Source: Bacteroidota bacterium (GTDB lineage Bacteria; Bacteroidota; Ignavibacteria; Ignavibacteriales; Ignavibacteriaceae). Taken from it: a stretch of 33,565 nucleotides of DNA. The translations under genes and the position numbers were made by a program. The number at the start of each line of letters is the position of its first letter. The stretch's first letter is position 1. Below, one piece after another: positions 8,853 through 32,147 of the stretch. The stretch covers positions 1 to 33,565 of the forward strand of contig JAJYDC010000027.1 of NCBI GenBank assembly GCA_021777835.1, written 5' to 3'. The notes beneath the pieces were generated by a model. That model saw nothing but the letters and a program-made list of their open reading frames with translations, ran no database searches and had not been told where the DNA came from.

Positions 8853-11069
8853 ATGAAGAAATACTGGATATCTTTTTCGGCTGTGTTAGTGATTTCATTT
8901 ACTATCCTGGGTTGGATAGGCAGCAAGATATATAATATGGCACCCCCTATACCAAAAGAAGTTGTGACTTCAAATGGTAAAATAATTTTTACAAAAGCAG
9001 ATATACAGGATGGTCAAAACATTTGGCAAGAGATGGGAGGGATGGAGACCGGGTCAATATGGGGGCACGGCAGTTACGTTGCTCCGGACTGGTCAGCAGA
9101 TTGGCTTCATAGAGAAGCAATGTTTGTGTTGAATTTCTGGGCATTGGATAAATTCAAGCTCAAATACGATCAGCTTTCAGATGAAAATAAAGCGATGCTT
9201 AAGGCGCGTCTTAAAGATATGTACCGCCAAAATACTTTTAGCAAGACTGACGATTTAATTACAATTGATTCAGTCCGTGCATTGGCTATTAACGCCAATA
9301 TAATTCATTATGAAGACGTTTTTATTAATGGACGAAATGCATATGCAATTAGACCAAATACAATTTCAAGTTTAGACAGAGTCAAAAAAATGTGCGCTTT
9401 CTTTTTCTGGACATCTTGGGCTGCGTCCACTAATAGACCAAATGACAATATTACTTACACAAGCAATTGGCCTCACGAAGAACTAGTTGGGAACGAGCCA
9501 ACTGGAGACACAATTGTATGGACGGGCGTTAGTATAATTGTTTTACTTGCCGGTATTGGAGGGATGGTATGGTATTATGCGTCTCAAGAAAGAATTATTC
9601 CTTCCGGCGAAGTGCAAAAAGATGACCCTCTCTTAGGTTCTCAATTGACACCGTCGCAAAGATCTGTTATCAAATATTTCTGGGTTGTAGCAGGTCTATT
9701 TGTTATTCAAATATTGATGGGTATTATAACAGCACATTATGGAGTCGAAGGAAATGGATTCTACGGAATTCCTCTTTCAAAGGTTCTCCCTTATAGTGTA
9801 ACAAGGACATGGCATCTACAATTAGGCATTTTTTGGATAGCAACCGCTTGGCTTGCTGCAGGGCTTTATATAGGGCCGGCCGTTAGCGGTGTAGAGCCTA
9901 GGGGACAAAGACTCGGGGTTAATGTTTTATTTGGCGCATTATTGGTCGTTGTGCTTGGTTCAATGGCCGGTGAGTGGTTTAGCATTCTTAATAAATTACC
10001 TAATCAGTATTGGTTTCTATTTGGCCACAGTGGCTATGAGTACATTGATTTAGGAAGATTTTTTCAAGTAGCATTATTTATTGGGTTACTATTATGGCTT
10101 TTCTTGATGTTTAGGTCAATAATACCTGCGTTAAAAAAGAATGAAGATCAAAAACAGATACTTATAATCTTTTTAATATCCATTATTGCTATTGCGTTAT
10201 TTTATGCTTCAGCATTGGTATACGGGAAACATACTAACTTATCGATAGCAGAATATTGGAGATGGTGGGTGGTTCATCTTTGGGTTGAAGGATTCTTTGA
10301 AATATTTGCTACCGTAGTTATTGCATTTCTATTTGCAAGGTTAAAGCTATTAAGTCTTAAGACTGCAGGGCAGGCTACTATTTTCTCGTCTACAATTTTC
10401 TTAGCCGGAGGAATTATCGGTACTCTTCATCATTTATATTTTTCTGGCACTCCTACAATAGTATTAGCGCTAGGTTCTGTGTTTAGCGCACTTGAGGTAG
10501 TCCCTTTGCTATTTGTAGGCTATGAAGCATGGGAAAATATAAAAAGGCTTCGATCTACTGAATGGGTACAAAAATATAAGTGGCCTATTTATTATTTTGT
10601 CAGCGTAGCTTTTTGGAATATGATTGGTGCCGGATTATTTGGTTTTATGATTAATCCGCCAATAGCATTGTATTATATGCAGGGGTTAAATACAACACCT
10701 GTACACGCACATGCTGCTCTATTCGGTGTTTATGGAATGCTTGGAATTGGGCTGATGTTATTTACCCTGAGGTCTATTAAACCTGATATTACCTGGAATG
10801 AGGGTTCACTGAAATTTTCTTTTTGGGCAATAAACATTGGGCTCTTTTCAATGGTTACCTTTAGCTTGCTGCCGGTTGGGTTAATGCAAACTTGGGCTTC
10901 AGTTGAATATGGCTATTGGTATGCAAGAAGTTCTGAGTTCTTGCAGTCACCGCTGATGAATAATCTGAGATGGACAAGGGCTTTTGGCGACACAATTTTT
11001 GCGATAGGAGCGATAGTGCTTGTTGCTTTTATATTTGTACAGTCAATTAAAATTTATACTAAGAAATAA
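8853..11069 (+). CDS. norB: quinol-dependent nitric oxide reductase (qNOR)
   Basis: Single-subunit, quinol-oxidising nitric oxide reductase (also called NorZ) of the haem-copper oxidase superfamily, 738 residues. It reduces NO to N2O in the cytoplasmic membrane, for respiration or NO detoxification. The N-terminal extension (about 30-220) is the qNOR-specific NorC-like domain without a haem c motif. Haem b ligands are H321 (TWHLQLG) and H620. The haem b3 ligand is H618 in PVHAHAALFG. The non-haem iron ligands are H475 and E479 in HLWVEGFFE plus H526 and H527 in GTLHHLYF. About fourteen hydrophobic segments are present. It is monocistronic: no norD/norQ or accessory gene is adjacent. A CRP/FNR-type palindrome upstream suggests control by an NO- or oxygen-responsive regulator. 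I am confident of the family and of the quinol subtype. Confidence 0.96.
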   Translation: MKKYWISFSAVLVISFTILGWIGSKIYNMAPPIPKEVVTSNGKIIFTKADIQDGQNIWQEMGGMETGSIWGHGSYVAPDWSADWLHREAMFVLNFWALDKFKLKYDQLSDENKAMLKARLKDMYRQNTFSKTDDLITIDSVRALAINANIIHYEDVFINGRNAYAIRPNTISSLDRVKKMCAFFFWTSWAASTNRPNDNITYTSNWPHEELVGNEPTGDTIVWTGVSIIVLLAGIGGMVWYYASQERIIPSGEVQKDDPLLGSQLTPSQRSVIKYFWVVAGLFVIQILMGIITAHYGVEGNGFYGIPLSKVLPYSVTRTWHLQLGIFWIATAWLAAGLYIGPAVSGVEPRGQRLGVNVLFGALLVVVLGSMAGEWFSILNKLPNQYWFLFGHSGYEYIDLGRFFQVALFIGLLLWLFLMFRSIIPALKKNEDQKQILIIFLISIIAIALFYASALVYGKHTNLSIAEYWRWWVVHLWVEGFFEIFATVVIAFLFARLKLLSLKTAGQATIFSSTIFLAGGIIGTLHHLYFSGTPTIVLALGSVFSALEVVPLLFVGYEAWENIKRLRSTEWVQKYKWPIYYFVSVAFWNMIGAGLFGFMINPPIALYYMQGLNTTPVHAHAALFGVYGMLGIGLMLFTLRSIKPDITWNEGSLKFSFWAINIGLFSMVTFSLLPVGLMQTWASVEYGYWYARSSEFLQSPLMNNLRWTRAFGDTIFAIGAIVLVAFIFVQSIKIYTKK

Positions 11070-18154: not shown

Positions 18155-18502
18155 ATTGTGATAAATTATGACAATCTATTGTATTACTTAGCTCTTATTG
18201 AATTTTTGTTATGGTTATGATTCAGAGGTTTTCATTATCAATATTCTATTAAAGCTTCTGAAAAAGGGATTATTTCTTCAACAACTGGCTAACACATTTC
18301 CATAACAATAATTAACATGCTTATTGAATTTGATTTTTTCTGGCATAAACGAAAATCATTAATAATATATATTTGTATTTTTATCTAGAAAATTGTAAAA
18401 TTATTACAAAAGAAATCTATTATATTTAACTAATGGTCTTATTATCTTTTCAAATAGAATTTCCTAAACTAGATAGCTCCAAAATATGTGTTTCCTTATA
18501 AC
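18155..18502. other. intergenic region before the HisKA_3 kinase (348 nt)
   Basis: A/T-rich sequence with no ORF, no repeat longer than background and no clear operator. It must hold the promoter of the two-component operon that follows. Confidence 0.4.
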
Positions 18503-19669
18503 ATGAAAATTCCACGTTTGATTGTTAGCCTTGGTAATCCGCTAAACTTATCTTTACTTATTGGGATAGCTATAGTTGGAGCAATTTATTTCTATTATGT
18601 AAATATTAATAATCCTCATAGACGCATTAATATTTTTAGAAGAAATAGACTCGGATTTAACAACAATAGGTTAATGGCTCTTTTTGTAGAACTCAATCCT
18701 AACCCTCTATTCCAATTTAACCTCAATGGCAAAATAACCTTTTCTAATACTGCCGGGTTCAATATGAGCCATAACAATGAAATTGTAGGGTTATCTGTCA
18801 ACACCGTTTTTAACGGGTTACCGGATTTCGATTTTAAGGATTTCATACTTAAAGGGAAATCATATCAATGTTCAGTTCAAATAAAAGATAATTATTATAA
18901 CTTGATGTTAATAGGAGTTCCAGAGATAGGATTGGGAAAAATATTTTGCGTTAATACTACTGAACAAAAAAGAATTGAAGAAGAATTAATCCAATCAAGA
19001 ACAAATCTCCGCAATCTTTCTAACCACATCCAGAAATTGCAAGAGGAAGAAAAACAAAAAATCTCAAGAGAGCTTCATGATGGTATTGGACAAATATTAA
19101 CTTCAATAAAACTAAATATTGAAGCTATAGTTAGCGAGTCCACTGATTATGAAGGCAAGCGTGAGAGATTTAGAGATATTACTAAATTGGTTGATACAGC
19201 TATTACTGAAACTAAGGAAATGTCTTATCAACTGAAACCGAGAATCTTAGATGACTTTGGTCTGGTACCTTCTTTGAATACTCTTTGTAAAGAGGTATCG
19301 AAAAAGAGCGGCATTTCCGGTAATTTTAAATCTTTTAAGCTTGATGATAGATTAAGTCCGGAAATAGAAACAGTACTTTTCCGGATTGCTCAGGAAGGGC
19401 TAAATAATATTGTCAAACATTCCCATGCGAAAGAATTTAGTATCCAATTATTTAAACATCCGGAATTTATTAGGCTGATGATTGAAGATGATGGCGTAGG
19501 ATTTGAAATGGACAAAATACATACCGACGAATCAAAGCAAAAATGCATGGGCTTAATAAATATAAATGAACGCGCCCTTTCAATAAATGGTAAAGTAACT
19601 ATTGATTCACAAAAGGGAGCAGGTACTGATATTATTGTAGAAATTCCTTTAGAGGAAGAAAATGCGTAA
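18503..19669 (+). CDS. NarX/DesK-type (HisKA_3) membrane sensor histidine kinase
   Basis: Kinase partner of the NarL-type regulator that overlaps its end. From the ATG at 18503 it has 388 residues. One N-terminal hydrophobic segment (about residues 13-33) anchors it. A PAS-like region spans about 60-160 (LFQFNLNGKITFSNTAGFNM). A coiled coil follows with the HisKA_3 dimerisation motif ISRELHDGIGQ, whose histidine is the phospho-acceptor. The HATPase_c domain shows FRIAQEGLNNIVKHSHA, EDDGVGF and MGLININERA. A GTG at 18488 would add five residues and has no better ribosome binding site. A single membrane helix with hardly any periplasmic loop suggests it senses a cytoplasmic or membrane signal. 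Confidence 0.9.
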   Translation: MKIPRLIVSLGNPLNLSLLIGIAIVGAIYFYYVNINNPHRRINIFRRNRLGFNNNRLMALFVELNPNPLFQFNLNGKITFSNTAGFNMSHNNEIVGLSVNTVFNGLPDFDFKDFILKGKSYQCSVQIKDNYYNLMLIGVPEIGLGKIFCVNTTEQKRIEEELIQSRTNLRNLSNHIQKLQEEEKQKISRELHDGIGQILTSIKLNIEAIVSESTDYEGKRERFRDITKLVDTAITETKEMSYQLKPRILDDFGLVPSLNTLCKEVSKKSGISGNFKSFKLDDRLSPEIETVLFRIAQEGLNNIVKHSHAKEFSIQLFKHPEFIRLMIEDDGVGFEMDKIHTDESKQKCMGLININERALSINGKVTIDSQKGAGTDIIVEIPLEEENA

Positions 19670-20327: not shown

Positions 20328-20472
20328 ACTCACTTTCTAAATTCCTATCTCTTGCTAACTATATAATTCGTGCTTGTGAATGATTTACTCCTTCTAAGCA
20401 CTACTTAAGAAATACACTTAAGATTTCTAATCAATCATTATATAAAAATTGTGCTTACATAAATCTTGGCAT

Positions 20473-20556
20473 ATCGATCTACGTAATTTTACGTAGATCG
20501 ATCTACGTAAAATTACGTACGTTAAATTACGTAGAAGCATCTACGTAATTTTACTG
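20473..20556. repeat. cluster of six TACGTA palindromes in three inverted-repeat pairs
   Basis: TACGTA starts at 20480, 20490, 20504, 20514, 20528 and 20542, giving spacings of 10, 14, 10, 14 and 14. The first two copies lie in a perfect inverted repeat with 14-bp arms ATCGATCTACGTAA (20473-20486) and TTACGTAGATCGAT (20489-20502). The next pair has TACGTAA/TTACGTA around AA. The third has ATTACGTAGA and TCTACGTAAT around AGCA. It lies in a 361-nt gap between the NarL-type regulator and the first REC-only protein. It may be a multi-operator array, a structured transcript end, or a repeat element. Confidence 0.8.
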
Positions 20557-20628
20557 ATGTGCTTAATTAAACAATTAATTATGTTTCCGAACAATTATTT
20601 ACAGGGCAGGGAAACCTTGGGGGTATCT

Positions 20629-20664
20629 GAGAATCGCTGAATGCTTTGGCAAACAGCGATTCTC
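20629..20664 (+). promoter_or_regulatory. strong leader hairpin before the first REC-only gene
   Basis: GAGAATCGCTG (20629-20639) and CAGCGATTCTC (20654-20664) are perfect 11-bp complements. Within the 14-nt loop TGC/GCA can extend the fold. It ends 24 nt before the ATG at 20689. No T-tract follows, so a terminator is unlikely. It may be a 5' leader structure or the end of an upstream RNA. A purine-rich stretch with GGGCAGGGAAACC lies just upstream. Confidence 0.55.
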
Positions 20665-20688
20665 TCATCATATAAAAGTTTACTAATT

Positions 20689-21069
20689 ATGCTTAAAGAA
20701 AAAATACTAGTAGTTGAGGATGATGTCGATACTCAAAAATTCCTTCAGCTTTTTCTCCGAAAATATTATGAAATTGATATTTGCTGGACCGAAGATTCCT
20801 TCTATAAGTTATTATCACTTAATCCTTATAAACTAATTATTATGGATATTTCTATTAAAGGTCGTAAAGATGGTCTCCAATTAACTAATGAATTAAAAAA
20901 TTCCAAATCTTATGGTCATATACCGATTATCTGTCTTTCAGCCCACGTACTATATAGCGACGTTCAGAATGCCTATGACGCTGGTGCTGATGTATTCCTA
21001 AGTAAACCGGTTAGCAACGAATTACTTTTACGCACGATTAGCGATACTCTGAAAAAGTTTAGCCTTTGA
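20689..21069 (+). CDS. single-domain (REC-only) response regulator, copy 1
   Basis: A CheY-like receiver of 126 residues with no output domain. Acidic pocket E10/D11/D12 (VVEDD), phospho-acceptor D53 (IIMDISIKG), the switch region CLSAH and the conserved lysine in FLSKPV are all present, so it should be phosphorylatable. An in-frame ATG at 20641 would add 16 residues, but it sits inside the loop of a strong hairpin and gives an N-terminus unlike receivers, so I prefer 20689. It is paralogous to the next gene. Likely roles are phosphorelay intermediate or protein-protein signalling with an orphan kinase such as the one at 2793. Confidence 0.85.
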   Translation: MLKEKILVVEDDVDTQKFLQLFLRKYYEIDICWTEDSFYKLLSLNPYKLIIMDISIKGRKDGLQLTNELKNSKSYGHIPIICLSAHVLYSDVQNAYDAGADVFLSKPVSNELLLRTISDTLKKFSL

Positions 21070-21241: not shown

Positions 21242-21631
21242 ATGGAATATGATCTTGATATTAAAAAGCCCAAAATCCTCATAACTGAAGATGATTTTGA
21301 AAATCAAAGATTTCTTAAATTGTTCCTGAAAAAGAATTTTGATGTATACATGTGCGACTCGGATCAAACATTCTATGAGAACCTAAAGAACACAAAATTT
21401 GATGTTATCTTAATGGATATTTCTCTTCGCGGTAAAAAGAATGGTTTGCAGCTTACTAAGGAATTAAAAGAGACTCCTGGTTACGAAGATATCCCGGTTG
21501 TTTGCTTAACTGCTCATGCTTTTAAAAAAGATCGGGATAGTGCATTTGACGCCGGAGTAAATGTTTTCCTAACAAAACCTGTAGAAAATCATATTCTTAT
21601 GGAAACTCTCCTGGGAGTTTTGAAGAAGTAA
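21242..21631 (+). CDS. single-domain (REC-only) response regulator, copy 2
   Basis: A second stand-alone receiver, 129 residues, 172 nt after the first and clearly homologous. Both share a leucine/lysine-rich FLKLFLKK/FLQLFLRK helix, the MDIS phosphorylation motif, GLQLTKELK/GLQLTNELK, and DAG...VFLTKPV/VFLSKPV. The acidic pocket is E17/D18/D19, the phospho-acceptor D59, and the lysine is in LTKPV. There is no output domain. GGAA about ten bases before the ATG is a possible ribosome binding site. The gap and the separate 5' region suggest the two may be expressed independently. It converges on the PorV-like gene. Confidence 0.9.
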   Translation: MEYDLDIKKPKILITEDDFENQRFLKLFLKKNFDVYMCDSDQTFYENLKNTKFDVILMDISLRGKKNGLQLTKELKETPGYEDIPVVCLTAHAFKKDRDSAFDAGVNVFLTKPVENHILMETLLGVLKK

Positions 21632-21666: not shown

Positions 21667-21682
21667 TTATAAATATTTATAA
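21667..21682. other. 16-bp palindrome at a convergent gene junction
   Basis: TTATAAATATTTATAA is perfectly palindromic and overlaps the stop codon of the reverse-strand PorV-like gene, 35 nt after the REC-only stop. It could contribute to bidirectional termination, but it is purely A/T, so chance is plausible. Confidence 0.3.
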
Positions 21683-22717
21683 TCCCTTCCTTAGAAACTT
21701 TGGCTCTTCTAAAGTAAGTGTCAATGATATCCTATGCGTATTTCCTAAATCATTTTCTGTTGAACTAAATGTTGCAAAAGAATAGTCAATATTCAATTTT
21801 GGCAGCTTTACTCCCGCACCAATAGTGAATTGCTTAATGTCGTTGTAGCCCGCTCTTACTGAAATAATATTCTTAAAATCGTATTCTAATCCGGCATGCA
21901 TATCAAAACTGACAGGGCCGATATAAAATTCAGAAGCAAACTGCCTGTTTTCAAATCGTATATCACAATCAACAGCAGGCGTAAATGTTCCGGCAAGAAA
22001 TTCAACCTGATATGCAGCACCTACTTTTGCTGTTGGCGATATAAGCTCATTCCTTCCTGTACTCCATGCTACTAATGTAGTCGTTATATCTTGTAAATTT
22101 ACTCCTACCGCAAATCTGTTAAAAGGTGTGTACCATGCTCCAACATCAAACCCAATTCCTGTAGCGTTATATTCGGCAATATTTTCATGAATGACTTTTG
22201 CATTCACCCCGTAGTATAATTTATCAGAATATCTCTTTGCAAATGTTAAATAAAATGCCCAGTCCTGATCGCTAAATTGCGTTATCTGATTGTAATCAAG
22301 TCTTGCGTTTGGATTATTAATATCAGTAATATATTGCCCAGTCGTTGGATCGTATAATGCATTTCTCGTATCCGGAATTCCGTCTACCCCTAATCTAATA
22401 ATGCTTAAACCAAAGCTCATGTCCTTGCCGTAAGGTATTGCAACAGCTGCATAATCATAATTCTCTAAACTGCCGAATCTTTCATCATGCATCAACTCAA
22501 CCTGAGGATAATTTATCCTCGCTAATGCTGCCGGATTATAATAGCCCGCTGTTACATCATTTGCTACAGCTACATATGCTCCGCCCATTCCTAGGGGTCT
22601 CCCACCGACTCCTATTGCCATAAATTCTCCAGCATATTTTCCCCAAACTGTCTGTGCTTTTACAATTGGAAAGCATAAAATCGAGGCGAGAATGACGAAT
22701 AAAATTTTTTTAAGCAT
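21677..22717 (-). CDS. PorV/PorQ-family outer-membrane beta-barrel protein
   Basis: A 346-residue protein with a signal peptide (1-21, ending VKAQT). It carries the characteristic N-terminal stretch AGEFMAIGVGGRPLGMGGAY then VANDVTAGYYNPA, shared by PorV/PorQ and FadL-like barrels. The rest alternates strands typical of a barrel (YGVNAKVIHENIAE, VSFDMHAGLEYDF, VRAGYN). In Bacteroidota relatives PorV is the shuttle of the type IX secretion system, but members of this family are numerous in Ignavibacteria-like genomes and many are not PorV itself. No other T9SS gene is in the window, so I leave the function as outer-membrane protein. It lies downstream of gpmA on the same strand, with a terminator between. 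Confidence 0.85.
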   Translation of the reverse strand: MLKKILFVILASILCFPIVKAQTVWGKYAGEFMAIGVGGRPLGMGGAYVAVANDVTAGYYNPAALARINYPQVELMHDERFGSLENYDYAAVAIPYGKDMSFGLSIIRLGVDGIPDTRNALYDPTTGQYITDINNPNARLDYNQITQFSDQDWAFYLTFAKRYSDKLYYGVNAKVIHENIAEYNATGIGFDVGAWYTPFNRFAVGVNLQDITTTLVAWSTGRNELISPTAKVGAAYQVEFLAGTFTPAVDCDIRFENRQFASEFYIGPVSFDMHAGLEYDFKNIISVRAGYNDIKQFTIGAGVKLPKLNIDYSFATFSSTENDLGNTHRISLTLTLEEPKFLRKGL

Positions 22718-24265: not shown

Positions 24266-24745
24266 TTATGTAATTGAAATATTAGATTCGGCAACATCCG
24301 CAAAGTTTGAAACAATAATAGATACCTTTTGCTCACTGCCAATCAGATCCTTTAATGTTAGCTTGCTTAAAACACCGTCAAGCAGCGATTGAATCGTTCT
24401 CCACAAAGATCTTATTGAACAATCAATCGTATGTGTACAAATCATCTCAGTGCCTGCGTGTATATCACAAAAACTAGATTCAAATAACTTTCCGCCTAAG
24501 ACAGAGAGTACTTCACCAATTACAATTTCATTTGCAGGACGCGCAAGTTTGTAGCCGCCTGTCTGTCCTCGAGTGCTTTCAATAAATCCACCAAGCCGCA
24601 AAGCTCTTAAAAGCTTTCCGGCATTGGCAGTTGAAAGTCCTTCCATTTGACTTATCTCGGGAATGGTCAATCCGTTTTGAGAAGTCGACATTCCAATTCT
24701 CAACAAACATCTTAATCCGAACTCTTCTTGCGAACTAAATTTCAT
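24266..24745 (-). CDS. Rrf2-family transcriptional regulator, probable iron-sulfur sensor of the suf operon
   Basis: A winged-helix Rrf2 protein of 159 residues. The helix-turn-helix is ISQMEGLSTANAGKLLRAL (31-49) and the wing is ESTRGQTGGYKLARP. Three cysteines, C93, C103 and C109 (SFCDIHAGTEMICTHTIDC), sit where IscR and relatives bind a [2Fe-2S] cluster, although the first spacing is wider than in E. coli IscR. It is the last gene on the strand, 34 nt after the bacilliredoxin gene and downstream of sufBCDSU, so it most likely senses Fe-S status and controls the operon by feedback. The palindrome in the sufB promoter is a candidate target. I avoid the symbol iscR or sufR because orthology cannot be shown here. 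Confidence 0.88.
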   Translation of the reverse strand: MKFSSQEEFGLRCLLRIGMSTSQNGLTIPEISQMEGLSTANAGKLLRALRLGGFIESTRGQTGGYKLARPANEIVIGEVLSVLGGKLFESSFCDIHAGTEMICTHTIDCSIRSLWRTIQSLLDGVLSKLTLKDLIGSEQKVSIIVSNFADVAESNISIT

Positions 24746-24779
24746 TTTACTTTCTCATAATATCAAAATTAATTAACTA

Positions 24780-25313
24780 TTAACCTTTGAATAAAGGAAT
24801 CTTTGATCCGCATTGTTTTGCATAATTTACTTTCTCGAAGTTCTCTGCACTTATAGAAGGACCCTTTGCTGTGCAGAATTCATTGAATACATCAACTAAT
24901 TCATTTGCTATATACTCTGCACTGTTTCCTTCAATTGCATGCCTCGGCATGAAATAAATCAGTGTACCATTCTTAAATAATGCAACACTAGGTGATGACG
25001 GGGGATAGTTTCCTATTAACTGACGTATTCTATCAACAGCTGTCCTTTCCTGACCGGCAAATCCAGTATATAGTTTATTAGGTATTTTATCATTCTGAAG
25101 TGCTAATGAAACTCCGGGACGAGCGCTGCCTGCTGCACATCCGCATACTGAATTTATCATTACTAACACTGTTTCGTCACCCTGAATATTAATTGCTTTA
25201 TCTACATCTTCGGGTGTCAAAAGCTCTTCGAACCCTACGGCAATCAATTCATCTCTCATTGGCTGAACAGCGTCCTGATCATACATTGGCGGACGCGATA
25301 CTATATTGAACAT
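24780..25313 (-). CDS. BrxA/BrxB-type bacilliredoxin with a C-terminal extension
   Basis: A thioredoxin-fold protein of the YphP/YqiW (BrxA/BrxB, DUF1094) family. In Firmicutes it removes bacillithiol from protein thiols. The start MFNIVSRPPMYD and the active site NSVCGCAAGSARPG (C57, C59) are diagnostic. The later blocks KLYTGFAGQERTAVDRIR and SPSVALFKNGTLIYFMPRH also fit. It has 177 residues, about 30 more than the usual 140-150. The extra C-terminus holds another cysteine (YAKQCGSKIPLFKG). It lies 110 nt after sufT and 34 nt before the Rrf2 gene, so it probably belongs to the suf transcription unit. That hints at a low-molecular-weight thiol link to iron-sulfur assembly. Confidence 0.9.
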   Translation of the reverse strand: MFNIVSRPPMYDQDAVQPMRDELIAVGFEELLTPEDVDKAINIQGDETVLVMINSVCGCAAGSARPGVSLALQNDKIPNKLYTGFAGQERTAVDRIRQLIGNYPPSSPSVALFKNGTLIYFMPRHAIEGNSAEYIANELVDVFNEFCTAKGPSISAENFEKVNYAKQCGSKIPLFKG

Positions 25314-25423
25314 ATCTTAGCTCCTATCATTTATTATTATTAATCACTTTCTTAAACGTAAACTTTATCTAAACCTTAGTCTTCCTTTTAATCTAAACTC
25401 GCTCTTACTACTATTACTTCTTG
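25314..25423. other. intergenic gap between sufT and the bacilliredoxin gene
   Basis: 110 nt of A/T-rich sequence, the longest gap within the suf cluster. No convincing terminator hairpin is visible, so read-through from sufT is plausible, but an internal promoter for the bacilliredoxin-rrf2 pair cannot be excluded. Confidence 0.4.
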
Positions 25424-25744
25424 TCAGTACATTCCCAATTCAACCTTCGCATACTCAGACATCATGTCTCGATCCCAAGGGGGATTCCATACTAACTCAA
25501 TATCCACAGATTTGATTTCCGGCAAAGAGCGGACTTTTTCTGCTACTTCCGGTGGCAACGAACCTGCTACAGGACACGCAGGTGATGTCAAAGTCATGCT
25601 AATCTTTACGTTAGCTTCATTGTCTATTCTAATTTGGTATATTAATCCAAGCTCGAAGATATCGACTGGAATCTCCGGATCGTAACATGTCTTTAATACT
25701 TGAATAATTTTATCTTCTAATTCTTGCTTATTTAGTTCGCTCAT
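25424..25744 (-). CDS. sufT: SufT/DUF59 (MIP18-like) iron-sulfur cluster assembly factor
   Basis: A compact 106-residue DUF59 protein. It contains the family signature CYDPEIPVDIFELGLIY (20-36) and the conserved cysteine C57 in TSPACPVAG. Such proteins (SufT, PaaD-like, eukaryotic MIP18) help in maturation of Fe-S proteins. Here it starts 2 nt after the sufU stop and is clearly part of the SUF operon, which supports SufT rather than the PaaD branch. It is cytoplasmic with no extra domains. Confidence 0.9.
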   Translation of the reverse strand: MSELNKQELEDKIIQVLKTCYDPEIPVDIFELGLIYQIRIDNEANVKISMTLTSPACPVAGSLPPEVAEKVRSLPEIKSVDIELVWNPPWDRDMMSEYAKVELGMY

Positions 25745-25746
25745 AA

Positions 25747-26202
25747 TTATTCCGTTGAAACAGATTTTTCTTCTTGCTTAAACGCCGCTACCATTGTGTG
25801 CCACGCAAGACTAGCGCATTTAACCCGTGAAGGAAACTCTCTTACTCCTGCAAAAACAGCTAACTTGCCTAACTTATCAATATCCTCTTCTTCAGTAATT
25901 CTACCCGTGATTACGGCTTGGAACTTCTCAAAAAGTTTCTCAGCTTCTTCTACCGGCAATCCTTTTACTATAGAACTCATTAGTGATGCCGATGCTTTTG
26001 ATATTGCACAACCGGATCCTTGAAAAGAAATATCTTTTATTTTTCCGTCTTCTAACTCAACATAAATATTCAGCTTATCGCCGCATAAAGGATTATAGCC
26101 TTCAGCAAAATGATTTGCCCTTTCCATCTTCCTGAAGTTACGCGGGTTCTTATTATGATCTAAAATTACCTGCTGGTAGAGCTCCTTAAGTTCGCTATCC
26201 AT
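25747..26202 (-). CDS. sufU: SufU, zinc-dependent sulfurtransferase / scaffold-like partner of SufS
   Basis: IscU-like protein of 151 residues that accepts persulfide sulfur from the SufS cysteine. The SufU ligand set is present: C40 and D42 (NPLCGDKL), C65 (GSGCAISKAS) and C129 (RVKCASLAW). The segment between C65 and C129 includes the SufU-specific insertion (about residues 85-110) that distinguishes it from IscU. The start ATG overlaps the sufS stop codon by one base (TAATG), so translation is coupled. Family members from Firmicutes bind zinc and transfer sulfur to SufBCD; the same role is inferred here. Confidence 0.95.
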   Translation of the reverse strand: MDSELKELYQQVILDHNKNPRNFRKMERANHFAEGYNPLCGDKLNIYVELEDGKIKDISFQGSGCAISKASASLMSSIVKGLPVEEAEKLFEKFQAVITGRITEEEDIDKLGKLAVFAGVREFPSRVKCASLAWHTMVAAFKQEEKSVSTE

Positions 26203-27461
26203 TAATTAAAAACCTCAATAAGTTTTATTATTCCTTTAACAAGTATGTCCACTTCTTCTTCAGTATTATATACAGCAAAAGAAGCGCGTGATGTTGCAGG
26301 TATATTATATCTATCCATTACCGGTTGCGTGCAGTGGTGACCGGTTCGTATTGCTATTCCTTCAAAATCCAAAAATGTTCCTGCATCATGCGGATGAATA
26401 TTATCAAACACAAAAGAGACAACACTGCTCTTATGTTTGGCTTGTCCTATTATTTTCAACCCGGGTATCTGCATCAGACTCTTAGTTGCATAATCTAAAA
26501 TCTTGGTTTCATGGGCTATTATATTATCAAGCCCTATACGAGAAATATAGTCTAGAGCAGTACCTAACCCAATTGCATCGGCAATATTTGATGTCCCTGC
26601 TTCAAACTTGTAAGGAAGCTCATTAAAAGTAGTCTTTTCAAAGGTAACCTTTGAAATCATATCGCCTCCGCCCTGGAATGGGGGAAGTGACTCTAAAAGC
26701 TTTTCCTTTCCATATAATACTCCAATTCCCGTAGGACCGTATATCTTATGTCCCGAGAAAGCAAGAAAATCACAATTAAGTTTTTGTACATCAATCTTCA
26801 AATGTTGAATTGCCTGAGCTGCATCAATTAGTACTGGTATATTATGTCGATGTGCTTCCTCAATGATCTTTTCTATAGGATTGATTGTCCCTAGTGAGTT
26901 TGAAACATACACTATAGATATTAATTTCGTTTTTTCACTTATTAACTTCAGGAACTCATCATATATTATATCACCATTATCGTCGATAGGTATTATTTTA
27001 AGTTTGATCTTCTTTTGTTCTTGAATAAGCTGCCATGGGACTATATTGGAATGATGTTCCATTGCAGAGATAATTATTTCATCTCCGTCCTTCAAAATAG
27101 CTTTGTTGAAGATATTCGCTACCAGGTTAATTGACTCAGTCGTGCCGCGTGTAAATATTATTTCCTTCTCGCTTGAAGCATTAATGAAATCCTTTACTTT
27201 AATACGCGCATCTTCAAATTCCTTAGTTGCAAGTTCGCTTAAATAATGCACACCGCGATGAATATTAGCATTCTGATGTGTATAATATTTTACAATAGTG
27301 TCAATTACAGCTTGCGGCTTCTGTGTAGTAGCAGCATTATCTAGATAACATAATGGCTTGCCATGAACTATTTCCTTTAATATAGGAAAGTCTGCACGTA
27401 TTTCGTTCACATTAAAAGAGTGTGGCTCTTTCTTTTTTTGAGTTACTATTTCTGTTGCCAT
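26202..27461 (-). CDS. sufS: SufS cysteine desulfurase
   Basis: PLP-dependent class V aminotransferase-fold enzyme that removes sulfur from L-cysteine for the SUF pathway, 419 residues. The N-terminal YLDNAATTQKPQAV is typical. PLP lysine K239 lies in FSGHKIYGPTG, and H136-H137 in ISAMEHHSN stack on the cofactor. The persulfide-carrying C377 sits in RTGHHCTQPVM, the group II (SufS) form with a short active-site loop. A lysine-rich leader of about 15 residues precedes the conserved domain. It lies 9 nt after sufD and overlaps sufU by one base, in the standard operon order. Confidence 0.97.
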   Translation of the reverse strand: MATEIVTQKKKEPHSFNVNEIRADFPILKEIVHGKPLCYLDNAATTQKPQAVIDTIVKYYTHQNANIHRGVHYLSELATKEFEDARIKVKDFINASSEKEIIFTRGTTESINLVANIFNKAILKDGDEIIISAMEHHSNIVPWQLIQEQKKIKLKIIPIDDNGDIIYDEFLKLISEKTKLISIVYVSNSLGTINPIEKIIEEAHRHNIPVLIDAAQAIQHLKIDVQKLNCDFLAFSGHKIYGPTGIGVLYGKEKLLESLPPFQGGGDMISKVTFEKTTFNELPYKFEAGTSNIADAIGLGTALDYISRIGLDNIIAHETKILDYATKSLMQIPGLKIIGQAKHKSSVVSFVFDNIHPHDAGTFLDFEGIAIRTGHHCTQPVMDRYNIPATSRASFAVYNTEEEVDILVKGIIKLIEVFN

Positions 27462-27470
27462 CTTAGCATC

Positions 27471-28793
27471 TTAACTTTCTTTGTTAAATCTTTGATCAAG
27501 TATATTTTCAAGATAATTTTTTATACTATCTATTTTAATAGACTTTACAACATCGCTTGCAAACGCATGAATTAATATTGTGCGAGCCGTTTCTTCACCT
27601 ATACCCCTTGATTTTAGATAGAACATCGACTCATCATCAAGTTGTCCAATTGTTGCACCATGCGAACATTTCACGTCATCCGCAAAGATTTCAAGTTGCG
27701 GCTTTGTATTTACTAATGCTTCATTGGATAAAATAATGTTATTGTTCTCCTGGAAAGCATTTGTTTTCTGAGCATTTGGTCTCACCATTACTTTCCCATT
27801 AAAAACCCCCCGGGATTTCCCGTCAAGAATTCCTTTGAAATGCTCATGGCTATTGCAATATGGCTTTGCATGATCAATCATAGTATGTGTATCATGTAAT
27901 TGAGTATTGTCCATTAAATATAGACCGTTCAATGTACATTCTCCGCCTTCTCCGTTAAACTTTGATGAAATGTCATCGCGTGAAATTTCAGCACCTAAAG
28001 AAATTGAAACTGATTCGTAATTACTGTCCCTCTCCTGGTCGATCTCAGTTCTTGAAATATGAAATGCGCTGCTGCTTTCTTCCTGAATCTTTATATGATT
28101 AAGAGTTGTATTTTCTCCAACTACAATTTCTGTAACTGCATTAGTAAAATATGTATTACTTGATAGAGATATATAATGTTCAACAAAAGTAACTTTAGAA
28201 TTTCTGCCTGTTATATATAAATTCCTTGGCTGAACTAAAGGCTGATTATTCATCGCTGTAGATATAAATAAAACCAGTATAGGTTCTTCAACTGAAATAT
28301 TGTCAGGCACAGAAATAAATGCTCCGTCCTTTATGTATGCCGAATTTAAAGCTGTGAATGCATTATCTTGAAAATGAGCATATTTACTGAAATGCTTCTT
28401 AAATAATTCCTGATCTTCCTTACATGCAATAGATAAGTTCTTTACTATTACAAGCTTATCTAAACTGTTTGACGCTGATAATTCTTCAGAGAAAATACCA
28501 TCCACAAAAACTATATGATTCTTAAAAGAATCCTTCAGTTTGAAATTTGAAATATCTTTAACATTAAGTTCATGCTTATCAACTATAGGATCAAAACTAT
28601 ATTTTAACAAAGGTAAAATGTTTGTGAAGCGCCATTCTTCATCTTTAGTAGTAGGGAATTTAGTTAATGAAAACCTTTCCAGTGCTTCTTTCCTTATGGA
28701 TTTTAATAGAATTGGACTGCTTCCATTTAAGCTTTTCTCAAACTCTCCAAACCTTTCAGTAATTAACTCCCTAAAATCTACCACATCATTCAT
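27471..28793 (-). CDS. sufD: SufD, component of the SufBC2D scaffold
   Basis: SufB/SufD-family protein of 440 residues with the beta-helix core (LYLMDNTQLHDTHTMIDH, HEHFKGILDGKSRGVFNGKV, FADDVKCSHGATIGQLD). The N-terminal helical region EEWRFTNILPLLK is typical of SufD. It forms a heterodimer with SufB and binds SufC; the complex assembles Fe-S clusters in the cytoplasm. The histidine in KCSHGATIGQ corresponds to the conserved SufD histidine implicated in cluster formation. It follows sufC after 71 nt. Confidence 0.96.
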   Translation of the reverse strand: MNDVVDFRELITERFGEFEKSLNGSSPILLKSIRKEALERFSLTKFPTTKDEEWRFTNILPLLKYSFDPIVDKHELNVKDISNFKLKDSFKNHIVFVDGIFSEELSASNSLDKLVIVKNLSIACKEDQELFKKHFSKYAHFQDNAFTALNSAYIKDGAFISVPDNISVEEPILVLFISTAMNNQPLVQPRNLYITGRNSKVTFVEHYISLSSNTYFTNAVTEIVVGENTTLNHIKIQEESSSAFHISRTEIDQERDSNYESVSISLGAEISRDDISSKFNGEGGECTLNGLYLMDNTQLHDTHTMIDHAKPYCNSHEHFKGILDGKSRGVFNGKVMVRPNAQKTNAFQENNNIILSNEALVNTKPQLEIFADDVKCSHGATIGQLDDESMFYLKSRGIGEETARTILIHAFASDVVKSIKIDSIKNYLENILDQRFNKES

Positions 28794-28864
28794 TCTAAAT
28801 AATTCTCCAATTTATTAAATACTGGTCAAATGTATTCCTAATAATCATATACTTGTGCTGAAAC

Positions 28865-29620
28865 TTAAACTTGCGGAATATCTTCCTTTACCCAATCGTA
28901 TCCTTTGTCTTCAAGCTCTAGTGCTAGTTCCTTGCCGCCTGACATAACTATTTTGCCTTTATATAGTACATGAACAAAGTCTGGGATTATATAATCTAGC
29001 AAACGTTGATAATGAGTAACCACAATTGTAGCATTATCTTTAGTCTTTAATTTATTCACTCCATTAGCTACAATCCGAAGTGCATCAATATCAAGCCCTG
29101 AATCAGTTTCATCAAGAATTGCAAGCTTTGGTTCAAGTACTGCCATCTGAAAAATCTCGTTTCTTTTCTTCTCTCCGCCTGAAAATCCTTCATTAACGGC
29201 GCGGCTTAAGAGTGACTGTTCCAACTCAACAAGTTTCATTTTACTTTTTATCATAGACAGGAATTCCATTGTATCGATTGCTTCCAGTCCTCGATATTTC
29301 CTTATTTCGTTTAAGGCTGTTTTTAATAGATTTGTATTACTTACACCGGGAAGCTCTATAGGATATTGGAATGCAAGAAATACTCCTTCCCGTGCGCGAA
29401 CTTCCGGAGATAGGTCCAAAAGATTTTTTCCTTCGAATAGTGCTTCACCATTGGTTACTTCATATTCAGTCTTACCTGCTAGGGTTTGTGCAAGCGTACT
29501 TTTACCAGAACCGTTCGGTCCCATTATGGCATGAACTTCTCCGGCATTTACTGTTAAATTTATTCCTTTTAATATTTCTTTGCCTTCAACTTTTACGTGA
29601 AGATTCTTTATTTCTAACAT
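28865..29620 (-). CDS. sufC: SufC, ABC-type ATPase of the SUF complex
   Basis: Cytoplasmic ABC ATPase of 251 residues. Walker A is GPNGSGKST (34-42), the signature is FSGGEKKRNEIFQM, Walker B is LAILDETDSGLDID, and the H-loop lies in VVTHYQRLL. The DETDSGLD and KKRNE forms are specific to SufC rather than transporter ATPases. It energises structural change of SufBC2D. It lies 34 nt after sufB and in the standard order before sufD. Confidence 0.97.
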   Translation of the reverse strand: MLEIKNLHVKVEGKEILKGINLTVNAGEVHAIMGPNGSGKSTLAQTLAGKTEYEVTNGEALFEGKNLLDLSPEVRAREGVFLAFQYPIELPGVSNTNLLKTALNEIRKYRGLEAIDTMEFLSMIKSKMKLVELEQSLLSRAVNEGFSGGEKKRNEIFQMAVLEPKLAILDETDSGLDIDALRIVANGVNKLKTKDNATIVVTHYQRLLDYIIPDFVHVLYKGKIVMSGGKELALELEDKGYDWVKEDIPQV

Positions 29621-29654
29621 TCTTAATTCCTAATTATTGATTCGTAATTACTTA

Positions 29655-31103
29655 TTATCCAACACTGCCTTCGAGGCTAATGCTTAATAATTTTTGTGCT
29701 TCTACTGCGAACTCCATTGGAAGTTCCTTAAAGACTTCTTTGCAATATCCGTTGACTATTAGCCCGATAGCATCCTCGGTAGAGATGCCTCTTTGATTAA
29801 GATAAAAAATTTGATCTTCACCTATCTTTGATGTTGTTGCTTCATGCTCAACTTGTGCCGATGGATTATTTATTTCAAGATAGGGGAATGTATGTGCTCC
29901 GCATTTATCGCCGAGCAAAAGGGAATCGCACTGTGAAAAATTCCTTGCATTTTCGGCGCGGCGAGCGACCTTAACTTGTCCCCTATAGCTGTTATTGCTT
30001 CTCCCAGCAGAAATACCTTTTGAAATTATTGTGCTTCTTGTATTTCTTCCAAGGTGAATCATCTTAGTGCCGGTGTCTGCCTGCTGAAGATTATTTGTTA
30101 CTGCTACCGAATAAAATTCTCCGATTGAATTGTCGCCTTGCAAAATACAGCTTGGATATTTCCATGTAATGGCTGAACCTGTTTCAACTTGCGTCCATGA
30201 AATCTTTGAATTAACACCTCGGCATGCTCCTCGTTTCGTAACGAAATTGTATATGCCGCCTTTACCATCTTTATCACCCGCATACCAGTTCTGAACAGTA
30301 GAATATTTTATCTGTGCATTATCAAGTGCAATCAATTCAACAACTGCTGCATGAAGCTGGTTTTCATCTCTTTGAGGTGCTGTGCATCCTTCGAGATAGC
30401 TTACGTATGCACCTTCATCTGCAATAATTAATGTTCTCTCAAACTGACCTGTATTTGCGGCATTCATCCTGAAGTAAGTTGAAAGCTCCATTGGACAGCG
30501 CACACCTTTGGGAATGTAAACAAAAGAGCCATCGGAAAATACTGCGGAGTTGAGGCTTGCAAAAAAGTTATCTGTGTGGGGAACAACGCTTCCAAGATAT
30601 TTTTTAACAAGATCGGGATGATTCTTAACTGCTTCTGAAAAAGAGCAGAAGATTATTCCTAACTCAGAAAGTTTTTCTCTGAATGTAGTTGCAACAGATA
30701 CACTATCAAATACTGCATCAACTGCAACTCCGGAAAGTCTCTTTTGTTCATCCAATGAAATACCGAGCTTCTCAAAAGTTTTTCTTAGTTCGGGGTCAAG
30801 CTCATCAAGGCTGTTGAGCTGTGGTTTCTTCTTAGGGGCAGAATAATATGAAATTGCTTGGTAATTTATTTTCGGGTAATGCACGTTTGCCCAATGCGGT
30901 TCAGTTAAAGTCAACCAATGCCGGTATGCTTTCAGCCGCCATTCAAGCATAAACTCAGGCTCTCCTTTAATGGACGATAATTTTTTTATAGTTTCTTCAT
31001 TTAGTCCAATTGGGAGACTCTCAGCCTCAATGTCCGTGACAAATCCAAACTTATATTCTTTATTAGCTAGCTCTTCAATTGTCGAAACTTCTGTAGAACT
31101 CAT
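29655..31103 (-). CDS. sufB: SufB, Fe-S scaffold subunit
   Basis: First gene of the suf operon, 482 residues, typical SufB length. Recognisable blocks are [13 protein letters not shown] near the N-terminus, [58 protein letters not shown], and the C-terminal [11 protein letters not shown] with [19 protein letters not shown]. The cysteine in GDKCGAHT and the nearby histidine/glutamate segment are those associated with cluster building. SufB accepts sulfur via SufS/SufU and works with SufC and SufD. It is preceded by a long intergenic region with a Bacteroidota-type promoter and palindrome. Confidence 0.97.
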
Positions 31104-31629: not shown

Positions 31630-31694
31630 CGGTAAAATTTATCTACCACAAATAGTTCGTTTTTAGCTCATTTTCGCGTTTTTCCTTTTTCTCT

Positions 31695-31749
31695 TATCTT
31701 GCTCATATCTTGTACTTATCTTGTACTTATCTTGCTCTTATCTTGTACT
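31695..31749. repeat. five tandem 11-bp repeats
   Basis: Five head-to-tail units starting at 31695, 31706, 31717, 31728 and 31739, with consensus TATCTTGTACT. The first and fourth units carry a GCTC variant in place of GTAC. A partial sixth unit (TAT) follows. Units 2, 3 and 5 are identical. The period is close to one DNA helical turn. Confidence 0.85.
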
Positions 31750-32147
31750 TATATTATACCTCTAATAGGTAGTCTGCCATTTTTGACAATTTGTGTCTTA
31801 AAATTATAGATTAGTTCTCACTTTTTGCTCAGATATTTCGATATTCAATTCCCGCTTTTATAAACAGATTTTTTTATTCAATATTTGCCTTTTATAAATT
31901 AAAGTGCGTCAGAATGAAAACAAAATTAAATCATTTTGAATAAGGAAGAGATTTTCGAGAGAGCCATTAAGACAGCTTATTAAGAATTAGAGTAAGTCAT
32001 TATCAATCTTTTGAATAAGCTAAGTAGACTATTGGCGTAGCTTCATTTATTAATTTTATCAACTTTTTTCAGTATGGAGCAGTCAGATTGTTTTTATCCG
32101 ATTATTCCGTTAATTTTATGATCATTTTTAAATAAGGTAATAGATAA

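Follow-up and report, generated by a model that had tools for sequence, protein, structure and literature searches.

GacA is a NarL-like regulator, and the rsmX/Y/Z RNAs bind CsrA/RsmA. A palindromic upstream element, described as a potential GacA site, precedes these short-RNA genes (PMC2375449). For DevR/DosR, promoters with closely packed sites have been reported, in which the proximal site overlaps the -35 element and cooperative binding is important for full induction of some targets (PMC3029386). The 7-2-7 site of E. coli NarL is composed of inverted heptamers with a 2-bp spacer and TAC at the outer ends (PMC4549865). RcsB belongs to the FixJ/NarL family and touches bases of its half-site, TTAGGAA, through two helix-9 residues, K180 and S184 (PMC5829831).

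We analyzed a 33,565-nucleotide stretch of DNA from a Bacteroidota bacterium (the window) that harbors an array of palindromes between the genes of RR-A, a NarL/LuxR-type response regulator (REC + GerE, PF00072 + PF00196; 19662-20327, forward strand), and of REC-only response regulator 1, REC1 (Response_reg, PF00072; 20689-21069, forward strand). As with DevR, a NarL-type response regulator with REC and GerE domains is encoded at the locus, and at least two inverted-repeat sites are closely packed. Unlike DevR, the regulator and the organism are different ones, binding here is putative, and the arrays comprise up to five units at a pitch of ~22-24 bp (with a 14-bp step in the window's own genome, G000, and in G007) whose letters differ between relatives. 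Inverted heptamers, a regulator of the same family and several sites per promoter are shared with E. coli NarL (PMC4549865); however, the array has a spacer of 3-4 bp with TAC innermost in the right half and is not of the 7-2-7 type. The CTAGGAA half-sites of three relatives (G002, G005 and G012) resemble the TTAGGAA of RcsB, whereas the window's own half-site is TACGTA. Since RcsB contacts TTAGGAA, an operator variant with CTAGGAA is plausible; no claim of orthology between RR-A and RcsB is made. The array is best read as belonging to a known kind, the NarL-family multi-site operator, its uncommon aspect being letters that differ on a largely fixed scaffold. Judging from the sequence comparisons below, it is likely to be a cooperative activator operator ladder of ~18-bp palindromes for a NarL-family regulator, most likely the adjacent RR-A.

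The array and its register to a promoter box

The first-pass annotation reported six TACGTA copies in 84 nt, and all six were recovered, with starts at 20480, 20490, 20504, 20514, 20528 and 20542 and spacings of 10, 14, 10, 14 and 14 nt. They span 20480-20547, inside the 20328-20688 gap between the NarL/LuxR-type and the REC-only regulator genes. The reported 14-bp inverted repeat is likewise present, ATCGATCTACGTAA (20473-20486) and TTACGTAGATCGAT (20489-20502) being perfectly complementary by eye, and a gapless perfect palindrome of 20 + 20 nt at 20480-20519 exceeds it in length. The claim that this density is beyond chance also held: when the window was dinucleotide-shuffled 1000 times, no shuffle exceeded two TACGTA copies per 84 nt, and shuffling the 362 nt of 20328-20689 5000 times never gave more than three. 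As for the proposed three inverted-repeat pairs, the repeats are there but a different parsing is preferable, as relatives point to ~18-bp units at 20479, 20503, 20517 and 20541.

Two of these units are operator-like palindromes without an assigned strand, CTACGTA-N4-TACGTAG (20479-20496) and CTACGTA-N4-TACGTAC (20503-20520), at registers -80 and -56 from the TACTGAT end. The third, GTACGTT-N4-TACGTAG (20517-20534, also unstranded, register -42), is imperfect and overlaps the end of the second palindrome. It is probably a separate unit, a reading taken from the register in relatives, as the script did not report the window copy; the unit at -42 is better formed in G007 (6/7) and G011 (7/7). 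The array ends in TACGTA-N4-TACTGAT, whose TACTGAT half was absent from the first-pass annotation. With the preceding C, this promoter-proximal operator (CTACGTA-N4-TACTGAT, 20541-20558, forward strand) emerged from the comparison with relatives as the conserved anchor of the array. The spacing of 14 or 24 bp puts successive units on different faces of the helix, which counts against the ladder reading.

The strict three-copy TACGTA pattern occurs at a single place in the own genome, which also contains only one exact TACGTA-N4-TACTGAT site, so that no regulon can be demonstrated there. An Rfam search over the window and four loci assigned neither the array nor the leader RNA to a family at the gathering threshold, the sole two matches being tRNAs. 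The best sub-threshold Rfam match in 20440-20720, TD-2 (32.6 bits versus 48.7 needed), spans the palindromes and was judged to be due to chance. No paper on the TACGTA array motif was apparent from the titles and abstract openings covered by a literature search.

A -7-like promoter box, TATGTTTC, is located at 20580-20587 on the forward strand, 22 nt past TACTGAT. In flavobacteria, the -7 box TAnnTTTG is reported to occupy -12 to -5 (PMC9723704). With the window's box at about -12 to -5, transcription is predicted to start at ~20592. Compared with the DevR site overlapping -35, the proximal operator would then lie at about -51 to -34 from this predicted start. Of 56 distinct exact TACGTA-N4-TACTGAT sites from genomes of the same order, 36 hold a fixed register to the box, with TA[TC]nTT exactly 22 nt after TACTGAT (other offsets, at most 5). 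The remaining 20 include some sites inside long open frames, which are likely chance matches. An alignment of 11 leader regions, with G003 left out, is gapless from TACTGAT to an invariant TATnTT.

The exact TACGTA-N4-TACTGAT motif gave 58 matches against 7 for a reversed-pattern control in 160 genomes of the order (present in 27), and 26 against 0 in the 13 genomes of the genus. With one mismatch it was found in 54 of 59 genomes with control counts equally large, and thus carries no signal alone. TACTGAT-N21-TAnnTT with one mismatch in the own genome gave no signal either (70 matches versus 85 for the control), and CTACGTA-N4-TACGTAG with one mismatch occurred in 9 of 59 genomes, its reversed control also being found in many.

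If the array acts as a cooperative ladder, the sensor histidine kinase paired with RR-A (HisKA_3 + HATPase_c by Pfam; 18488-19669, forward strand) would phosphorylate RR-A, and RR-A dimers would occupy the ladder starting at the TACTGAT site and proceeding upstream. The dimer at 20541-20558, directly upstream of the Bacteroidota-type promoter box, could contact RNA polymerase as class II activators do. The additional palindromes, 14-24 bp apart, would admit more dimers cooperatively and make the response sharper or stronger. Polymerase recruited in this way would transcribe the leader RNA and then REC1 by read-through. The locus provides candidates for the operator, promoter and leader RNA of the kinase-regulator pair. 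By comparison with G007 and G011, the true start of the kinase may be 18503 rather than 18488, and REC1 probably starts at 20689 and not at 20641. Among the best NCBIfam matches listed, no model above its cut-off named the kinase/RR-A pair.

Ladder spacing and half-site letters among relatives

Of 59 genomes searched, three contained the strict three-copy pattern, namely G000, G007 and G011, and in the latter two the array is flanked by the orthologues of the regulator and REC genes. Three further arrays in G007 each lie upstream of a lipoprotein-like gene, and all four G007 arrays are upstream of genes in the same promoter register. Other letters occupy the same interval elsewhere in the genus: CTACGTA palindromes in G006, a mixture in G009, CTACGTA/CACGTAG in G010, and CTAGGAA-type palindromes in G002, G005 and G012. 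The G003 contig stops just past RR-A, and CTACGTG-type arrays are found on two other contigs of this genome. CTAGGAA-N3-TTCCTAG with at most one mismatch was found at seven places in three of the 13 genus genomes (G002, G005 and G012 only); its control gave 11 places over seven genomes, and only the promoter position supports this motif.

Registers were counted from the TACTGAT end, with upstream positions given as left-half starts. Each leader-locus array terminates in a proximal site with a TACTGAT right half. Upstream left halves lie at about -41/-42 and -64/-66 in G002, G003 (second copy), G005, G006 and G009-G012, and at -41 only in the other G003 copy. The ladders of G007 (-80, -56, -42) and G000 (-80, -56 and an imperfect -42) contain one 14-bp step. 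Across 74 distinct proximal sites, collected with a wider site definition than the exact motif, strict CTA-type palindromes were found at -41/-42 in eight cases, at -64 to -66 in seven, and at -38, -50, -56, -80, -85 or -87 in eight. In these comparisons, the ladder spacing is largely kept among relatives and the half-site letters differ. The 80 loci of 33-42% identity, from many phyla, that were kept from a scan of genome contigs were excluded from every count.

Within a genome, the array type is common to unlinked promoters, with four TACGTA arrays in G007, four CTAGGAA arrays in G005 and two CTACGTG arrays in G003. The expectation that an operator would be conserved in close relatives and at REC genes was borne out, but confinement to signalling genes was not: arrays and single sites were seen ahead of lipoprotein-like and further genes as well, which suggests a role wider than signalling genes. 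One target in G005 resembles, by eye and unaligned, proteins encoded in G001, G008 and G012 by genes with just one proximal site. A gene for a ~322-325-aa protein (L096:2289-3260, with similar-looking genes in L093, L086 and L314 past 1587) carries an operator at its promoter in G001, G005, G008 and G012; the G001 copy of this protein matches no Pfam family.

A more far-reaching proposal, which we put forward tentatively and consider rather improbable, is that the scaffold (a 22-24-bp pitch, the TACTGAT anchor and the box at +22) was held as the half-sites (TACGTA, CTACGTG or CTAGGAA) were exchanged together with changes in RR-A specificity, and that the array chiefly controls an RNA and not the REC protein. 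The structured RNA would be the main target here because it outlives the REC gene in G009. Whatever the merit of this proposal, related species show different half-sites at nearly identical registers, and the locus is therefore a natural experiment on the joint change in specificity of a response regulator and its full operator set, with ten regulators and their arrays available.

Candidate regulators and alternative explanations

RR-A orthologues (E ≤ 1e-60) were found in 10 of 31 genomes searched, the own genome included, all within the genus, where 9 of the 12 other genomes have one. In nine of these ten, the array sits within the corresponding regulator-REC interval, and in the tenth (G003) it is on separate contigs. 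The distance from array to RR-A is ~1.4 kb in G005 and smaller in the other genomes. In G009, the array is present with no REC frame after it. In G001 and G008, the proximal site, leader and REC gene are kept at the locus, the kinase and RR-A are missing, and there is no upstream array; G004 has neither an RR-A orthologue at E ≤ 1e-60 nor a leader match. For the leader-REC locus, upstream arrays are thus confined to genomes with RR-A. The RR-A tree agrees with the array type: TACGTA in G000, G007, G011 and G006 with the mixed G009 beside them, CTACGTG in G003 and G010, and CTAGGAA in the remaining three, whose branching is not resolved. This agreement is not independent proof, since the RR-A tree is probably the species tree. 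In the recognition helix, TV (PV in G010) is followed by E in six genomes (G000, G003, G006, G007, G010 and G011) and by D in four (G002, G005, G009 and G012). This residue tracks the array type except in the mixed G009, but most D-bearing paralogues likewise have TACGTA or TACTGAT sites, and we regard the residue only as a lead. In other genera, sites adjoin kinase-NarL regulator pairs in G031, G078, G101 and G124. A kinase N-terminal motif was found within 5 kb of at least 12 of 58 distinct exact sites, with flanks that were often shorter and a motif that misses some kinases.

The operator could instead serve a different LuxR/NarL-type protein, such as an RR-B-type paralogue or a LuxR-domain protein whose own gene bears a site, with RR-A a mere neighbour. 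We consider this unlikely, even though proximal sites persist in the three genomes without RR-A. Some other factor must be capable of using the proximal site, because exact sites occur in genomes without RR-A at E ≤ 1e-60 (G001, G004 and G008). G053 has seven exact sites, and the flanks examined contained the kinase motif at none of them. RR-B pairs in G006, G008 and G009 have ATCAGTA-N4-TACTGAT palindromes immediately upstream, and LuxR-like genes recognized by eye lie downstream of sites in G004, G005, G008, G009 and G012, the 67-aa one of G004 matching GerE in Pfam. What favors RR-A over such a protein is that the upstream array of the leader-REC locus occurs only with RR-A (none in G001 or G008), and that the half-site type fits the RR-A tree.

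Ten loci of paralogous NarL-type regulators were inspected, a minority of the paralogues, as the regulator search gave 29 matches. Five came from a search for CPPxC proteins (G006, G009, G012 C208, G024 and G038) and five from the regulator search (G001 C2, G008 C214, G012 C25, G053 C78 and G053 C14), the G008 stretch having originally been selected for its site. An operator-like palindrome lies close to four of the ten (G006, G008, G009 and G038, the last with ATACGTATTAATACGTAT). With the patterns used, no such operator was seen at the other six (G012 C208, G012 C25, G024, G001 C2, G053 C78, which is a lone regulator, and G053 C14), and the operator is therefore not universal among paralogues. 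The less similar regulator of G004 C4 has no operator-like site, and G053 C97 has a single TACTGAT with a box on the opposite strand. In G008, a kinase-NarL regulator pair and a divergently oriented 216-aa gene are separated by a gap with two operator-like sites, ATCAGTAGTACTACTGAT and TACGTAATACTACTGAT (L088:2197-2263).

The CPPxC-ending small proteins mostly look exported (L173:7502-7957 on C44 of the own genome, L048:8367-8807, L175:5958-6323 and others) and have matches in 41 of 59 genomes. A gene for a membrane protein of ~190 aa is a frequent neighbour, and several genomes have NarL-type kinase-regulator pairs next to the CPPxC genes. Five of the 42 exact sites listed for the 59 genomes lie within 5 kb of a CPPxC-family gene (G005, G001, G012 and twice in G031), against an estimated chance expectation of less than 0.4, given that a genome has no more than 1-3 genes of this family. 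Two members of the family had no Pfam match above cut-off and one had no NCBIfam match. The predicted fold (mean pLDDT 88.7) had no PDB match at E ≤ 0.001, and its weak best matches were sliding clamps.

The palindromes might also work at the RNA level, as terminator or leader hairpins in a kinase-regulator read-through transcript. The array would indeed fold, given its perfect 20+20-nt palindrome, and a terminator scan flagged two hairpins of the G006 array. The same scan of 20328-20720 in the window found nothing terminator-like, however, the array lies upstream of the predicted start in a fixed register to the promoter box, and the same arrays are found ahead of other genes in G007 and G005, which makes this explanation very unlikely. 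Still less credible is a REP-like mobile palindromic repeat or a cluster of methylase/restriction sites, both kinds having been raised by the first-pass annotation. Tandem palindromes, the palindromic nature of the TACGTA hexamer itself and the presence of four arrays in G007 would suit these ideas, but dispersed copies were not found in the genome, where the three-copy pattern sits at one place in a fixed promoter register, and the G007 arrays are all at the same promoter register. The methylase version is without support because the same positions in relatives carry CTAGGAA or CTACGTG. The suggestion of a cooperative operator array fared better: the register to the promoter box is fixed, the array takes the same regulator-REC place in relatives, and the same array type recurs at other promoters of a genome.

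The leader RNA and neighbouring genes

Between the promoter and the REC1 gene lies a conserved leader RNA (20603-20675, forward strand; alignment A3, model R1) composed of a AGGGCAGGG element and a hairpin, the latter having 11 bp and showing covariation in a comparison of 11 sequences (20629-20664, forward strand). Model R1 gave one strong match each in 11 of the 13 genus genomes, G003 and G004 being the exceptions, and these 11 leaders are the same sequences from which R1 was built. All 11 sit downstream of a TACTGAT promoter. G003, which has RR-A, was excluded from alignments A2 and A3 (contig end, no matching hairpin); it carries a leader copy without a box at exactly +22 and has no R1 match, both points against the operator reading. 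The other eight R1 matches listed have E values of 0.006 or weaker, five lying on the strand opposite a known leader and three elsewhere. The leader was considered as a multi-copy small RNA, and this was rejected, only these weak matches being found beyond the 11 strong ones.

In the 11 sequences, 97.5% of the hairpin cells pair and four pairs are changed on both sides. With relatedness uncontrolled, the covariation score and the count of cells with both-sided changes were reached by none of 500 shuffles, whereas the number of pairs changed on both sides was matched by 155 of 500 and the number of pair types by 339 of 500. A T-run follows the hairpin in G006, with a terminator-like match, and in G009, where the scan gave no match; past the window's hairpin there is no T-run, and the terminator scan found nothing. 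By eye, the REC protein of G006 is without the usual acidic pair. The leader RNA may matter by itself, because no REC gene follows the G009 leader and the G006 REC is without this pair. As for CsrA-type GGA sites, several of which would be expected in a Csr/Rsm-type RNA, a G-rich stretch is present in most, though not all, A3 rows. A G-quadruplex in the leader was also considered and rejected: G-runs compatible with one occur in several relatives, but neither G006 nor G009 has them, and quadruplex-enabled folding left the minimum-energy structure unchanged in 12 of 12 leaders.

The locus resembles GacA and the rsm genes in that the array is a palindromic element upstream of a short leader RNA and that CsrA (PF02599) is found in 11 of 13 genus genomes. 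In contrast to the rsm genes, the leader falls into no Rfam family at gathering and a REC gene follows it in most relatives. CsrA was not found in G003 and G011, the latter genome being 89% complete. Of the 11 genomes in which the leader was matched, all but G011, ten in total, encode CsrA, and G004 has CsrA but no leader match. Given the presence of CsrA, an Rsm-like role for the leader is possible but unproven, and a free, CsrA-binding small RNA is a putative product only.

A second, REC1-like REC-only regulator is encoded at the same locus (21242-21631, forward strand), and a TACGTA cluster was not found upstream of it. A PorV/PorQ-family protein follows at 21677-22717, with a match above the family cut-off and the closer PorV2 model below its own; this protein points to type IX secretion. 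Elsewhere in the window, a nitric oxide reductase-like protein with a NorB cytochrome c-like domain and COX1 is encoded at 8853-11069. At 24266-31103, an Rrf2-type regulator lies next to an apparent SUF iron-sulphur assembly cluster, recognized as SUF by eye from the translations. Finally, a tandem repeat is located at 31693-31759, with an 11-nt unit, CTTATCTTGTA, and a higher unit of 33 nt.
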